The notes under the pieces are model-generated. The model made no database searches and was not told the DNA's origin. It saw only the letters and a program-made list of their open reading frames with translations. Shown here one piece after another: positions 4,772-9,900 of a DNA stretch of 64,000 bases. The translations under genes and the position numbers were made by a program. Source of the stretch: Qipengyuania flavescens (lineage in GTDB: Bacteria > Pseudomonadota > Alphaproteobacteria > Sphingomonadales > Sphingomonadaceae); contig NZ_JARULD010000002.1 in the NCBI RefSeq assembly GCF_029688735.1, positions 310,001 to 374,000 of the forward strand. Reading direction: 5' to 3'. The stretch's first letter is position 1. Each line of letters opens with the position of its first letter.

Positions 4772-5721
4772 AACCTCTCCTGCCTTTCATTGCCACCATC
4801 GCGGTTGCGTCCTGCAGTTCGCCTGCGACGGAAGAAGTGCCCCGCGCAACTATCGACGCAAGCTGGCCGCGCATCCCTGACGATGCCGTCTTCGGGCAGG
4901 TCAGCGCGGTTGAGGCGGATAGTCACGGGCATATCTTCGTCCTGCACCGGGCCGGTCGCGAGTGGGAGGAGCCCTTTCCCGCCGAGCCCATTGCCGAGCC
5001 GACGGTCTTCATGTTTTCACCCAGCGGCGTGCTGCTCGGCCAATGGGGCGCGGGCGAGTTCGTCATGCCGCATGGCCTCTCGGTCGATGCGGGCGACAAT
5101 GTCTGGATCACCGATGTCGCGCGCGAGCAGGTCGTCCAGTTCGATCACGAAGGCAACCAGCGAATGGTCCTCGGCGAGCGTGGCGTGTCGGGGCAGGACG
5201 AGAGCCATTTCGGCCGTCCAGCCGACATCGCCTTCATCGGCAATCGCGTGCTCGTCGCCGATGGCTATGTGAACACGCGGGTGGCGGAGTTCGACCGCAG
5301 CGGCGCATTCCTGAGCGAGTTCGGAAATTTCCGCCTCGCGCATGGCATCGCGGTGGACGAGGACCGTATCTATGTCGCCGACCGAGAGAATGGGCGCATC
5401 CAGGTGTTCGACCACGCCGGAAAACTGCTCGACAGCCGCGACACGCCGACCGGCGGGCGGCCCTATGGCGTCGCGACGCTGGGCGGGGGCTGGCTCGTCA
5501 CGGTCGAGGGCAGGGACCGGGCGGACAATTTCGGGGCGATCGTGCGCGTCTATACGCCCGAGGGTCAGCTCGAGCGTTCGCTCGATGTCGCGCTCGATGG
5601 GCGCAACGCAAGCCTCGGCCACGATATCGCCATCGGCCGCGACGGCATGGCCTATGTCACCGACGTCTATGGCGATCGCGTTGTTCGCTTCGAACTCTCG
5701 CCCGAACAGGAACCTGAATAA
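4759..5721 (+). CDS. PAL-like NHL beta-propeller lipoprotein
   Basis: A 320-residue secreted lipoprotein: signal helix [13 protein letters not shown] with lipobox cysteine C19, then a six-bladed NHL-type propeller. The blades line up with the catalytic part of animal peptidyl-alpha-hydroxyglycine alpha-amidating lyase. LHRAG (R64), MPHGLSVD (H105), VADGY (Y170), LAHGIAVD (H195), [10 protein letters not shown] (R209) and LGHDIA (H288) match, from memory of that enzyme, its catalytic arginines and tyrosine and its three zinc histidines. PAL cleaves N-C bonds in peptidyl-hydroxyglycine; whether the bacterial protein does so is unknown. It overlaps the macrodomain gene by 13 nt, and its stop shares one base with the nspC start (TAATG). 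Confidence 0.8.
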
Positions 5722-6899
5722 TGGAAACGAAAGCCGGCGATCCCGGAGCCTTCCGCAATTTCGACCTTAACCGCGTCGACAGCCCTGCCTTCGTGGTGGA
5801 TGCGGCGAAGCTGCGCGCCAATTGCCAGGTTCTGGCCGAGATCCGCGATGCGGCTGACATCAAAGTCCTCGCTGCGCTTAAGGCCTTCAGCATGTGGGCG
5901 ACTGCGCCCATTGTCGGCGAATATCTCGACGGCGTGTGCACGTCGGGCTTGTGGGAAGCGCGGCTGGCGAGCGAATTCTACGACGGCGAGATCGCCACCT
6001 ATTCTGCGGCCTACAAACCGGAGGAGCTGGAAGAGGTCTGCCGCCTGTCCGATCACGTTATCTTCAATTCGCCGGGCCAGATGGAGCGCGCGGCGCTGAT
6101 CCTCGAGGCTGCACGGGCGGCAGGGCAGGATTTCGACGTTGGCCTGCGGATCAATCCGATGCACCCGACGGGCGAGGTTCCGCGCTACGATCCCTCCAGC
6201 CCCGGCAGCCGCCTCGGCTTTCCGATCGACCAGTTGACGCCGGAGATCATGGAAGGTGTGGAGGGCATCCACTTCCACAACCTCTGCGAGCAGGATTTCG
6301 AGCCGCTCCACGCGACATGGGACAAGGTGTTCGACGCGATCGAGCCGTGGTTCGGCCAGCTCAAGTGGATCAACATGGGCGGCGGTCATCACATCACCCG
6401 CGCCGATTACCAGCGCGAGGAGCTGGTCGAGTTCCTGCGCGATGCGAAGGACGATACCGGCGCGGAGATCTACCTGGAACCGGGCGAGGCGGTAGCGCTC
6501 GATGCGGGCATCCTCGTCGGCACCATCCTCGACACCGGCTTCAACGGCGTGCCGCTCGCGGTCGCCGACATTTCGGCGACGTGCCACATGCCCGACGTGA
6601 TCGAAGCGCCTTATCGCCCCGCCATGCTGGGCGAAGCGCCCGACCGCGAGGTGCCCGAAGTACGCATCGGCGGCCCGTCCTGCCTCGCCGGCGACGTGAT
6701 CGGCGACTATCGCATTCCCGGCGGCGCGGAGGTGGGCAAGCGGTTCGCCTTCCTCGACCAGGCGCATTATTCGATGGTGAAGACCAATACCTTCAACGGT
6801 GTGCAGCTCCCGAGCATCTGGCTATGGGACAGCGAGACCGACCAGCTCGAGCTCATCCGCGAGTTCGGTTACGAGAGCTTCCGCGACCGGCTGAGCTGA
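5721..6899 (+). CDS. nspC: Carboxynorspermidine/carboxyspermidine decarboxylase
   Basis: A 392-residue fold-type III (alanine racemase-like) PLP decarboxylase that removes CO2 from carboxyspermidine to give spermidine. The PLP lysine is K54 in LAALKAFSMW, a form of the motif typical of NspC rather than of ornithine or diaminopimelate decarboxylase. Further marks are GLRINPMHP, NMGGGHHITR (phosphate-binding glycines), EPGEAV and the C-terminal HYSMVKTNTFNG. It is translationally coupled to the PAL-like gene and completes the pathway begun by the operon's first gene. Its stop at 6899 abuts the convergent DUF3137 gene. Confidence 0.93.
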   Translation: METKAGDPGAFRNFDLNRVDSPAFVVDAAKLRANCQVLAEIRDAADIKVLAALKAFSMWATAPIVGEYLDGVCTSGLWEARLASEFYDGEIATYSAAYKPEELEEVCRLSDHVIFNSPGQMERAALILEAARAAGQDFDVGLRINPMHPTGEVPRYDPSSPGSRLGFPIDQLTPEIMEGVEGIHFHNLCEQDFEPLHATWDKVFDAIEPWFGQLKWINMGGGHHITRADYQREELVEFLRDAKDDTGAEIYLEPGEAVALDAGILVGTILDTGFNGVPLAVADISATCHMPDVIEAPYRPAMLGEAPDREVPEVRIGGPSCLAGDVIGDYRIPGGAEVGKRFAFLDQAHYSMVKTNTFNGVQLPSIWLWDSETDQLELIREFGYESFRDRLS

Positions 6900-7856
6900 T
6901 CAGCCGTAGCGCTCTGCCGGGCGGATGCGGTTCATCGTCAGCGCGAGGTCCGCGATCCCGGCGAATTGCCGGATCGTCTGCGCCACCATCGCGCGGTCGG
7001 CCTGAGGGTTCAGCGAGCCGCTCTCGAACAGATTGCCGCCCTCCAGCGCCAGCACCATGTTGCCGCCAGTGAATATAACCGCGCTGCCCTTGCCCTGAAA
7101 GAGCCGCTCGAGGTTGAGCAGCCGCTCGATATATTCGGGGTTGATCAGCCAGCGCGCCTCGGTCTGATCGGTGGTGTAAACATCGAACCGGTCTTCGAAT
7201 TCCGGGCTGACCATGTCCGCGAGCTGCAGCACCTGCCCGTCCAGCTTGACGCTGTCCTTGGCCCCGCCGAACAGCTTCCTGAACTGCCCGTCCTTCGCCA
7301 GCAGCGTGGTTCCGTGGAACGGGCGCTCGAACGACACGGACACGATCGCGCCGCGAAAAACGGTGACCCAGCGGCGGTTCTTGCCCGATCCGCGCCGCTC
7401 CTGCAGGTGCGCTTCGTGCAGGGTGAAGTCGTGCCCCGCCGTCTCGCCTTCCCATAAATCCTCGAAATCGCGTTTCTGGTGCTTGGGGAGCAGCCGGTAT
7501 TCGCGGGCGATCTCGAAGGCATCGGAGGCCTCGCAATCGTGGCAATAGGTGAGACCGAGCGCGCCCGCGATCGCCTCGTTGATGCCGGTCTTGACCTGCT
7601 TCTTGGCCTTCTGCTTGGGAATTTGCGACCACGCCCATGCGCCAGCGAAGGCGAGGCCCGCCAACCACAGCTTCGGCGTGAATTCGATCGGTACGAGGAT
7701 GAAGAAAAACGCGGCTAGCGGCAGCAGCACCATGCCCGCCTTCCACACCCGGTCCCACGATTGCGCGACCGCATCGGCGCGGACCTGCGCCTGGCCTTCC
7801 AGCCACGCGCCTAGCTCGCCCGCCATCAGCCGGTCCGCATCGGGATACTCGATCAC
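6900..7856 (-). CDS. DUF3137 family membrane protein
   Basis: A 318-residue protein with two adjacent hydrophobic helices (about residues 38-70) and a large soluble C-terminal region containing FEDLWEGETAGHDFTLHEAHL and VFRGAIVSVSF. This arrangement and sequence fit the DUF3137 family. It is divergently arranged with lemA, a pairing repeated in many Proteobacteria, which suggests a joint envelope role. No catalytic motif can be seen and the molecular function is unknown. The ATG at 7856 leaves a 67-nt intergenic space to lemA that must hold both promoters. Confidence 0.75.
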   Translation of the reverse strand: MIEYPDADRLMAGELGAWLEGQAQVRADAVAQSWDRVWKAGMVLLPLAAFFFILVPIEFTPKLWLAGLAFAGAWAWSQIPKQKAKKQVKTGINEAIAGALGLTYCHDCEASDAFEIAREYRLLPKHQKRDFEDLWEGETAGHDFTLHEAHLQERRGSGKNRRWVTVFRGAIVSVSFERPFHGTTLLAKDGQFRKLFGGAKDSVKLDGQVLQLADMVSPEFEDRFDVYTTDQTEARWLINPEYIERLLNLERLFQGKGSAVIFTGGNMVLALEGGNLFESGSLNPQADRAMVAQTIRQFAGIADLALTMNRIRPAERYG

Positions 7857-7923: not shown

Positions 7924-8499
7924 GTGTTCGAAGTCGCCAGCGCATTCTGGACGTCCGTCGCCCTGTTTTTGGGTGCGGGCCTCGTGATCCTGCTGATCGT
8001 GATCTACAACAAGCTTGTCGCCCAGCGGCAGAACGTGAAGCAGGGCGTCGCCGATATCGATGCGCAACTGCGCCAGCGGCACGATCTCATCCCCAATCTG
8101 GTCGAGACGGTAAAGGGCTATGCCGGGCACGAGCGCGAGACGCTCGATGCGGTGATTTCCGCGCGCAACCAGGCCGCCAACGGCCCGATCACTTCCAGCG
8201 ACGAACAGGGCCTGCGCGTCGCGCTCGACCGCCTGCTGGCGTTGAGCGAGAACTACCCCGACCTCAAGGCATCCGCCAATTTCCAGGAATTGCAGCGCGA
8301 GCTTAGTCACGTCGAGGACAAGCTGGCCGCCGCCCGCCGCGCGCTGAACGCCGCCGTCTCACGCTACAACACCGTGCGCGAGAGCTTCCCGGCGGTGCTG
8401 TTCGCCGGCCTGCTGGGCTTCAAGGAGGCGGATTTCCACCGTCTCGACGACAGCGAGAAGGGTACGGTGGACCAAGTGCCGTCGATCAGCTTCCAGTAG
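7924..8499 (+). CDS. LemA family protein
   Basis: A 191-residue protein with an N-terminal membrane helix (about residues 9-29) followed by the LemA alpha-helical bundle. The signature is NKLVAQRQNVKQGVADIDAQL, then RHDLIPNLVETVKGYAGHE and SENYPDLKASANFQELQREL. LemA proteins are inner-membrane anchored with unclear function, often next to membrane proteins such as the DUF3137 neighbour here. The GTG or ATG choice at the start is not decisive: the coding frame opens with GTG at 7924, eight nt after a GGGG stretch. A 9-bp GC-rich hairpin follows the gene. Confidence 0.88.
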   Translation: MFEVASAFWTSVALFLGAGLVILLIVIYNKLVAQRQNVKQGVADIDAQLRQRHDLIPNLVETVKGYAGHERETLDAVISARNQAANGPITSSDEQGLRVALDRLLALSENYPDLKASANFQELQRELSHVEDKLAAARRALNAAVSRYNTVRESFPAVLFAGLLGFKEADFHRLDDSEKGTVDQVPSISFQ

Positions 8500-8531
8500 C
8501 GCCTTTTCGCGAACCACCCGTCGCAACACAG

Positions 8532-8554
8532 GCCCGCCGCATCCCGCGGCGGGC
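8532..8554 (+). terminator. GC-rich hairpin after lemA
   Basis: Perfect 9-bp stem GCCCGCCGC / GCGGCGGGC with a 5-nt loop, 33 nt after the lemA stop. It is followed by a short, interrupted T stretch rather than a strong T-run, so intrinsic termination is plausible but not certain. Confidence 0.55.
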
Positions 8555-8579
8555 TTGCACATTTTCGCCGTGTATTCAC

Positions 8580-8697
8580 TTGCGTTTCATGACCCACGAA
8601 CTATACGCCGCGCTCCCGCTGCCCCAAGGACCCTTCCTAACCGCAAGGCAGCTTGTCGTTTCATGGTCCGCGAGGACCGTTTAGGGGGTCCCTTGAG
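8580..8697 (+). promoter_or_regulatory. Ornithine decarboxylase promoter and structured leader
   Basis: A sigma-70-like pair TTGCGT (8580-8585) and TATACG (8602-8607), 16 nt apart, precedes a leader of about 85 nt. In it GGACC occurs at 8628-8632 and 8674-8678, and its complement GGTCC at 8665-8669 and 8687-8691. The inner pair forms a stem closed by a GCGA tetraloop (8665-8678). The outer pair, CAAGGACCC (8625-8633) with GGGTCCCTTG (8686-8695), would bury the ribosome site AGGGGG (8683-8688). The pairings exclude one another, as in a translational riboswitch. Rfam's speF leader motif lies before alphaproteobacterial ornithine decarboxylase genes; identity with it is my inference. Confidence 0.6.
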
Positions 8698-9900
8698 TTG
8701 CAGCATTTTCCCGACGCCCAGGCTGTAGTCCGCGCTCTTCGCCCCGAAGAGCCGGTCATCCTCAACCGCCCGCACGCCGCGGCGCGCGCTGCCCGTTTTT
8801 TCGTCGAGAAATTTCCGGGCAAGTCGCTTTATGCGGTAAAGGCCAATCCCTCGCCCGAGCTCCTGCAGATCCTGTGGGACAATGGCGTGACGCATTACGA
8901 CGTCGCCTCCATTGCGGAAGTGCGCCTGGTGCGTGCGACGCTACCGCAAGCGACGCTGTGCTTCATGCATCCGGTCAAATCGCCCGGCGCGATCCGCGAG
9001 GCCTATCACAGCCATGGCGTGAAGACGTTCAGCCTCGATAGCGTCGAGGAGCTGGAGAAGATCGTCGACGCCTGCCGCGACCAAGATGGCAATGCCGCAA
9101 CCGACCTGCGCCTCTGCATCCGCCTGCGCGTCTCCAGCGAGCATGCCGCGCTGAGCCTTGCCGCCAAGTTCGGCTGCGACCTCACCGAAGCGCCCACGCT
9201 GCTGCAGCAGACCCGCCAGCATTGCGACTGGCTGGGCGTGTGCTTCCACGTCGGCAGCCAGGCGATGAGCCCCTTCGCCTATGTCCAGGCGATCGACCGC
9301 GTGCGTGCAGCCATTGCCGAAGCCTCGGTCGTGATCGACATGATCGACGTCGGCGGCGGCTTTCCCAGCGTTTATCCCGGCATGGAGCCGCCACCGCTGG
9401 AAGATTACTTCAAGATCATCCACCAGCACTTCTACGCTCTGCCGATCGCCTATAACGCGGAACTATGGTGCGAGCCGGGCCGTGCACTTTGCGCTGAATA
9501 TTCCAGTCTGGTGGTGAAGGTCGAGAAGCGCCGCGGCGAGGAACTCTACATCAACGACGGTGCGTACGGCGCGCTGTTCGATGCCGCGCATGTGGACTGG
9601 AAATTCCCCGTCCGCGCGCTGGAGGATGATCTCATCAAGCCGGAGATGGACTTCGCCTTCTACGGCCCGACATGCGACGATGCCGATTACATGCCCGGCC
9701 CATTCGCCCTGCCGGAAGACATCCAGGCAGGCGACTACATCGAGATCGGTATGCTCGGCGCATATGGCGCGGCAATGAAGACCGATTTCAACGGTTTCGG
9801 CGCGGCAGAGCGGATCATCGTGCAGGACGAGCCGATGGCCAGCCTTTACGACGGCAGCCGCACCCGGCCCGAAGCGGACAATGTGGTCAGCTTGCGCTGA
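8698..9900 (+). CDS. Ornithine decarboxylase, type III PLP fold
   Basis: A 400-residue alanine-racemase-fold decarboxylase that makes putrescine from ornithine (some members also accept lysine). With a TTG start at 8698 the PLP lysine is K48 in LYAVKANPSPE. The other marks are DVGGGFPSVYPG, the phosphate-binding CEPGRAL, and GPTCDDAD carrying the active-site cysteine contributed by the partner subunit. TTG 8698 was preferred over TTG 8653 because AGGGGG lies nine nt before it and 8653 falls inside the structured leader. It supplies putrescine to the spermidine operon upstream on the same strand. Confidence 0.88.
   Translation: MQHFPDAQAVVRALRPEEPVILNRPHAAARAARFFVEKFPGKSLYAVKANPSPELLQILWDNGVTHYDVASIAEVRLVRATLPQATLCFMHPVKSPGAIREAYHSHGVKTFSLDSVEELEKIVDACRDQDGNAATDLRLCIRLRVSSEHAALSLAAKFGCDLTEAPTLLQQTRQHCDWLGVCFHVGSQAMSPFAYVQAIDRVRAAIAEASVVIDMIDVGGGFPSVYPGMEPPPLEDYFKIIHQHFYALPIAYNAELWCEPGRALCAEYSSLVVKVEKRRGEELYINDGAYGALFDAAHVDWKFPVRALEDDLIKPEMDFAFYGPTCDDADYMPGPFALPEDIQAGDYIEIGMLGAYGAAMKTDFNGFGAAERIIVQDEPMASLYDGSRTRPEADNVVSLR

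Follow-up and report, generated by a model that had tools for sequence, protein, structure and literature searches.

A probable odc1-type leader RNA with tandem UUG starts and a short overlapping frame ahead of an ornithine decarboxylase gene of Qipengyuania flavescens

The window analysed here is a stretch of 64,000 nucleotides from Qipengyuania flavescens (contig NZ_JARULD010000002.1), and the part of it considered in this work holds a decarboxylase gene together with the leader RNA that is predicted to precede it. The features of the locus, in positions of the window, are as follows.

6900-7856, minus strand: DUF3137 protein, between the two decarboxylase genes discussed below
7924-8496, plus strand: LemA protein, also between the two decarboxylase genes
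8580..8609, plus strand: putative promoter (loose pattern), with -35 element TTGCGT at 8580-8585
8602-8607 or 8604-8609, plus strand: putative -10 element, either TATACG as read by eye (8602-8607, spacer of 16 nt) or TACGCC as picked by the script pattern (8604-8609, spacer of 18 nt)
8618-8623 with 8647-8652, plus strand: helix forming a pseudoknot, GCUGCC with GGCAGC, from comparative pairing
8628-8635 with 8684-8691, plus strand: stem containing the ribosome site (named P1 in the odc1 report, PMC8632094), GGACCCUU with GGGGGUCC, from computed pairing
8665-8669 with 8674-8678, plus strand: optional hairpin P2, GGTCC with GGACC, loop GCGA, by strict pattern
8683-8688, plus strand: Shine-Dalgarno sequence AGGGGG, spaced 4 nt from UUG1 and 9 nt from UUG2
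8693-8728, plus strand: overlapping short frame, start TTG 8693 (UUG1), 11 codons, stop TAG 8726-8728
8698-9900, plus strand: putative ornithine (or ornithine/lysine) decarboxylase (ODC), start TTG 8698 (UUG2), from Pfam and solved relatives

The product of the gene at 8698-9900 matches the Pfam domain Orn_Arg_deC_N with 125.8 bits, which places it in the Orn/DAP/Arg decarboxylase family. Its closest solved relatives are the lysine/ornithine decarboxylases 5gjm and 2plj, followed by eukaryotic ornithine decarboxylase, while the NCBIfam models that match it all score below their cut-offs; it is best described as a putative ornithine or ornithine/lysine decarboxylase. The gene at 5721-6896 resembles carboxynorspermidine decarboxylase (nspC model, 367.9 bits, below the curated 409.05), and its presence nearby fits a polyamine context. 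In three related loci (L125, L132 and L144) the end of an nspC-like gene was seen by eye directly before the leader.

Of 122 distinct regions upstream of the leader, 115 have the loose -35/-10 pattern, which in 114 of the 122 ends 1-7 nt ahead of the leader, compared with a mean of 3.3 and a maximum of 7 in 50 letter shuffles; a scan for the sigma-70 consensus gave 0 matches. Transcription is expected from these sequence patterns to start near 8614, so that the whole structure described below should be contained in the RNA. A strong hairpin at 8530-8556, after the LemA gene and just before the putative promoter, is perhaps the terminator of that gene, though it is not listed by the terminator scan.

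A protein scan with the decarboxylase gave 146 relatives, the best 80 of which were kept as loci, and all of these 80 share the leader except L041, whose contig begins inside the ODC gene and gave no leader. From 139 ODC places, 60 further upstream regions were taken from the order, and 30 places were taken as loci. Among the 60 regions, all 36 from the window's own family carry the leader and two (L155 and L156) carry a divergent form of it, and the leader pattern found nothing in L157-L178, 22 ODC genes that come from other families within the order. A covariance model built from 75 distinct leaders scores 75.5 bits at the window leader in its own genome, where the only other match is a partial one of 16 bits (E 0.7). 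In 196 genomes of the order, which were searched with stricter filters able to lose weak matches, the model matches 112 genomes once each at E<=0.01, two of these matches being poor (G308 partial, G305 weak with E 0.0025). All 112 matches lie on the same strand as an ODC match and at most 110 nt from it, and no other gene was seen under this RNA in the window's own genome or in the 196 genomes of the order. The one genome of the family listed without a leader (G309) is also without an ODC match at E<=1e-60. A search of 385 genomes of the class returned five members of the family and three weak matches (L191-L193, E 0.003-0.008), and chance matches are expected at such E-values over 385 genomes. 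The divergent leaders L155 and L156 score 21.0 and 15.3 bits and their genomes are unmatched at E<=0.01; because of these low scores and missing genome matches, their kinship with the other leaders rests on layout.

The two divergent leaders belong to another family of the order (f153). There, two ODC genes (L155/L194 and L156/L195) are preceded by a look-alike leader whose starts are AUG/AUG and whose overlapping frame has 6 codons; ODC matches were obtained in 6 of the 32 genomes of this family searched, and the look-alike leader was seen in two of the six. A degraded leader (25.3 bits) with a short frame of 22 codons occurs at 1345-1473 of L110, in a genome with an 87%-identical ODC. On a tree of 80 ODC rows (window 8614-8700 and L004-L083) the leader types are patchily distributed: the P2 cassette needs 11 changes, the GGACCC loop needs 6 changes, at least three of them forced by well supported branches, and a near-identical P2 cassette appears in distant rows, for example L045 and L082. 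This patchiness of types suggests that leaders have been exchanged between species.

The fold of the leader was evaluated by comparison across relatives, since the plain fold energy of the window sequence is unremarkable (8614-8730: z -1.39, with 21 of 200 shuffles folding equally well). The helix at 8618-8623/8647-8652, which the earlier note had overlooked, is conserved: 98.7% of its cells are paired in the 75 distinct leaders, two of its six pairs show two-sided changes, U-A is replaced by A-U in L121 and, by eye, in L034, and more paired variants are seen by eye in L153, L155 and L156. In the ribosome-site stem 95.6% of cells are paired, and six of the nine pairs vary on one side only and none on both, because the 3' strand of this stem is almost invariant. 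The structure as a whole, which is paired at 96.8%, drops to 39-61% once its partners are slid. When partners were shuffled, the covariation score was matched in none of 500 trials, while the number of pairs with two-sided changes was reached in 30 of 500 and the number of pair types in 48 of 500. Covariation support for the whole structure is modest.

The near-invariance of the 3' strand of the ribosome-site stem requires that the 5' strand be evaluated separately, by shuffling the loop. The pairing between the loop and the ribosome site of the window was equalled by one of 200 loop shuffles, and in 111 of 113 leaders, which are related so that their results are not independent, at most 5% of the 200 shuffles did as well (the exceptions are L024 and L026). 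The window belongs to a minority of 7 of the 80 rows in which the loop sequence is GGACCC and not the usual GGGGAC; the two differ jointly in three bases, and the pairing survives the change with a shifted register. Highly conserved positions are also found outside the stems, including CCGCAAGG and others.

An alternative arrangement of the same sequence had been proposed in the earlier note, in which four GGACC and GGTCC elements compete and the resulting choices exclude each other. The elements themselves were confirmed by reading the sequence: GGACC stands at 8628 and 8674 and GGTCC at 8665 and 8687, the inner stem 8665-8669/8674-8678 is capped by GCGA, the outer complementarity joins 8625-8633 with 8686-8695 with one bulged C, and AGGGGG at 8683-8688 (GGAGG in many relatives) lies ahead of the ODC start at TTG 8698. 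The design built on them did not survive comparison. The inner pair lies nested within the outer one, so that both can form at once, and only the cross-pairs are mutually exclusive. P2 is present, by a strict pattern, in only 23 of 113 distinct leaders, and its stem pairs in 22 of the 23 while its sequence drifts. In these 23 leaders all five pairs can form in the outer pairing in 23, in the inner in 22, in the cross-pairing of 8674 with 8687 in 15 and in that of 8628 with 8665 in 19, where the outer and 8628 x 8665 counts take the best match anywhere in the loop and are generous to both. Four-way competition was therefore rejected as a conserved design, the leaders of relatives not keeping it; it may form transiently in the window sequence alone. 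The leader peptide proposed to run from ATG 8663 to TAG 8726 was likewise rejected: the frame is present but has no support from relatives, since its ATG lies within the optional P2 stretch and the conserved start of the same frame is TTG 8693.

Leaving aside L157-L178 and L095 (the window's own copy), tandem starts are found in 147 of 148 loci, 144 of them TTG/TTG with 2 nt between the starts and 3 of them ATG/ATG with 1 or 2 nt; the 147 loci amount to 129 distinct 60-nt starts, because the two collections repeat some species. The short frame opened by the first start has 11 codons in 138 of the 147 loci, 9 in three, 6 in two, and 16 and 22 in one each, and it runs off the sequence end in two; its stop is TAG in 138, TGA in 6, TAA in 1 and open in 2. 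The length variants occur in divergent members.

Counted without a length filter, the distinct full-length genes number 97, and in 94 of them the first stop of the short frame is codon 12 (the filtered figure of 94 of 95, which drops L024 and L110 with their 16 and 22 codons, is partly circular), compared with an expected 4.3% when synonymous codons are redrawn from whole-gene usage and 19.4% when they are redrawn from the usage of codons 12-30. In the family loci L125-L154, L179 and L180 the stop lies exactly at codon 12 in 30 of 32, with one earlier and one open at the end. The stop coincides with ODC codon 10, where GTA encodes 94 of 94 valines, against 4.1% from codon 31 on. Across 125 distinct starts the stop context is GTA-G in 99, CTA-G in 18, CTG-A in 3, ATA-G, TTA-G and GTA-A in one each, and open in 2, so that the stop is formed through rare GTA and CTA codons and by all three stop codons; all of the counts given for the frame are inflated by relatedness, the 80-row tree showing only three changes of stop context. 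The off-frame identity of the peptide, 0.498, is within the range of five control windows (0.477-0.658), and the ratios of this identity to two redrawn nulls (1.31 and 1.14) lie within those of the controls (1.05-1.48 and 0.98-1.30); L024 and L110 were left out of these analyses of codon usage and peptide identity. As judged by these sequence comparisons, selection acts on the stop codon, while none is detectable on the peptide. At ODC codons 5, 7, 9 and 10 almost no third position is G although the residues permit it, so that some constraint may act on the peptide or on the RNA.

A frameshift from the short frame into ODC was also considered and was rejected by eye: the conserved ODC residues before the stop are retained while their third positions vary (codon 4, for instance, is TTT or TTC, and codon 5 is CCC, CCT or CCA). 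This pattern indicates that ODC most likely starts at UUG2.

A published family of RNAs resembles this leader closely. The odc1 motif (uORF-25-1) was reported in 2021 as a candidate gene switch with 272 alphaproteobacterial examples, and the text of that report describes a ribosome site within a stem, a pseudoknot made by the 5' end, two UUG codons 2 nt apart and an upstream frame of 11 amino acids (PMC8632094). Every odc1 feature that can be evaluated from this text is found in the window leader, which lies directly before an ODC gene, has TTG 8693 and TTG 8698 separated by 2 nt and an 11-codon upstream frame at 8693-8728, and is predicted by computation to pair 8628-8635 with 8684-8691, which puts the ribosome site into P1's right shoulder, and to form the pseudoknot from 5' terminus to loop (8618-8623 x 8647-8652). 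The comparison is with the description given in the published text. On this footing the window leader is probably a member of the odc1 leader RNAs, with an 11-codon frame that serves mainly as an abortive decoy and a fold that sets access to the starts and the split between them.

The mechanism that these results suggest may be outlined as follows. The transcript would begin near 8614 and fold into the pseudoknot, in which, according to the comparative fold, the loop strand 8628-8635 would pair with the ribosome site 8684-8691 and make both starts hard to reach. When the stem opens, a single Shine-Dalgarno sequence would serve both UUG1 at 8693, which leads into the 11-codon frame ending at TAG 8726 inside ODC, and UUG2 at 8698, which leads into ODC itself. 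The first frame would be mainly an abortive decoy, with selection keeping its ending and not its peptide, and the folded RNA, as we infer from the sequence evidence, would make the ribosome site less accessible. The fold would thereby determine both how readily the starts are reached and how ribosomes are divided between them, which is most simply understood as feedback on the synthesis of polyamines. A polyamine-type ligand is a plausible candidate trigger; that a ligand of the polyamine pathway closes the stem as feedback is a guess, both as to the ligand and as to the sign of control. The fullest version of this scheme is a ligand-sensing riboswitch that controls polyamine synthesis through the choice between two overlapping start codons, sending ribosomes down a dead end of 11 codons of which the peptide is irrelevant; it is put forward tentatively, as a possibility more doubtful than not. 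The start-codon-choice design may extend to the divergent AUG/AUG form with its 6-codon dead end (L155, L156).

The decoy has to be weighed against the possibility that the 11-residue peptide itself acts, for example by stalling the ribosome on ornithine or a polyamine, as the speFL peptide of enterobacteria stalls its own ribosome in response to one of these. The prevalence of the length of 11 among the 147 loci and the near-absence of third-position G at several overlapped ODC codons would fit such a peptide, and the text of the odc1 report describes most of its residues as highly conserved and suggests a functional role for it (PMC8632094). Against it stand an off-frame identity that does not exceed that of the control windows taken from the gene itself, C-terminal residues that vary (RL, GP, LL, WG, DP) and frames of 6, 9, 16 and 22 codons; a stop that is strongly kept over a peptide no better conserved than the controls favours the abortive decoy, and a working peptide is judged unlikely. 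It is more improbable still that the frame is incidental, in that UUG1 persists because the RNA fold needs it, while the stop does no more than limit the harm of stray initiation. CCUUG can indeed lengthen the ribosome-site stem in leaders with an AAGG loop, but leaders with an ATGG loop keep UUG1 despite losing pairs to it, and where UUG1 has changed it has become AUG along with UUG2 (L153, L155, L156). In reporters of the S. echinoides odc1 RNA assayed in E. coli, moreover, both starts work and the upstream one does so about three times better (PMC8632094).

A structured leader that has no specific ligand and responds in a general way to temperature, Mg2+ or bulk polyamine, or that simply fixes ODC expression at a low level, is rather unlikely, if a serious contender. 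It would be consistent with the absence of a known ligand for odc1, with the unremarkable fold energy of the window and with the ability of polyamines to associate broadly with RNAs (PMC10853860). A specific core is suggested instead by highly conserved positions that lie outside the stems, among them CCGCAAGG, and mutations at strictly conserved odc1 positions are described as affecting one start more than the other: M4 to M6 lower main-frame expression in the S. echinoides reporters, and M4 and M5 barely affect the upstream frame (PMC8632094). The options that the same report raises for odc1 are that its peptide is functional, that ribosomes choose between the starts and that the RNA is a riboswitch; its text names no ligand.

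The remaining alternative concerns family. Rfam's speF leader (RF00518) is located upstream of ornithine decarboxylase genes in alphaproteobacteria, and the earlier note had taken the present leader for a member or relative of it. The leader is indeed structured, is able to hide the ODC ribosome site and carries an overlapping short frame, as that note had said; its assignment to speF did not stand. The shared type of downstream gene speaks for speF. Against it, no Rfam family reaches its gathering score anywhere in the 64-kb window, speF is missing from the four weak matches that a permissive scan lists for 8300-8900, and when RF00518 was run on the window's own genome at E<=10 it matched weakly at three places, all of them away from this locus. 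Among 190 genomes of the class, 10 have an RF00518 match at E<=0.01, which in four is above the cut-off, and the consensus of the genuine speF RNAs differs from that of the window leader. With no match at the locus at the thresholds tried and a different consensus, membership in speF is ruled out, and even kinship with it retains almost no probability. An sRNA ar45 (RF02347) match lies 7-8 nt upstream of the speF match in all four loci above the cut-off, and an ar45 match is also present in L088, whose speF match is below it (loci L084-L088).

These results matter because odc1 is a candidate riboswitch with an unusual two-start design, and term searches of the open-licence literature found no later papers treating the motif. 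The layout of odc1 has already been published; what appears from the sequence comparisons to be new here is the selected stop, the slight variation in length and the AUG/AUG pairs. The question of peptide or decoy thereby becomes a simple test, in which the stop is found to be under selection and the peptide not detectably so. If a ligand of the polyamine pathway exists, the leader would join the spermidine riboswitch, the sole class of polyamine riboswitch found in the literature searched.

Among known systems, speF shares with the window leader the type of gene downstream and differs from it in sequence and structure. The speFL leader of enterobacteria, in which a conserved arrest peptide is encoded upstream of the ODC gene, is alike in placing a short frame ahead of that gene, whereas the window frame runs across the ODC start and has a peptide without excess conservation. 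The spermidine riboswitch shares RNA control of polyamine genes; its text describes a SAM-I variant with a SAM-I-like aptamer that acts through transcription termination (PMC10853860), while the SAM family models that were run give no match at gathering score anywhere in the window and none among the four permissive matches in 8300-8900. The closest likeness is to odc1, with which the window shares, as far as the published text describes it, the ODC gene, the alphaproteobacterial host, the ribosome-site stem, the 5'-end pseudoknot, the tandem UUG codons and the 11-codon frame. The present leaders differ from it in that the loop strand of the window is GGACCC in place of the usual GGGGAC, with a shifted register and the same 3' strand, in that AUG/AUG start pairs occur among the relatives, and in that the short frames of the relatives also have 6, 9, 16 or 22 codons, whereas the odc1 report found the length to be invariant (PMC8632094).
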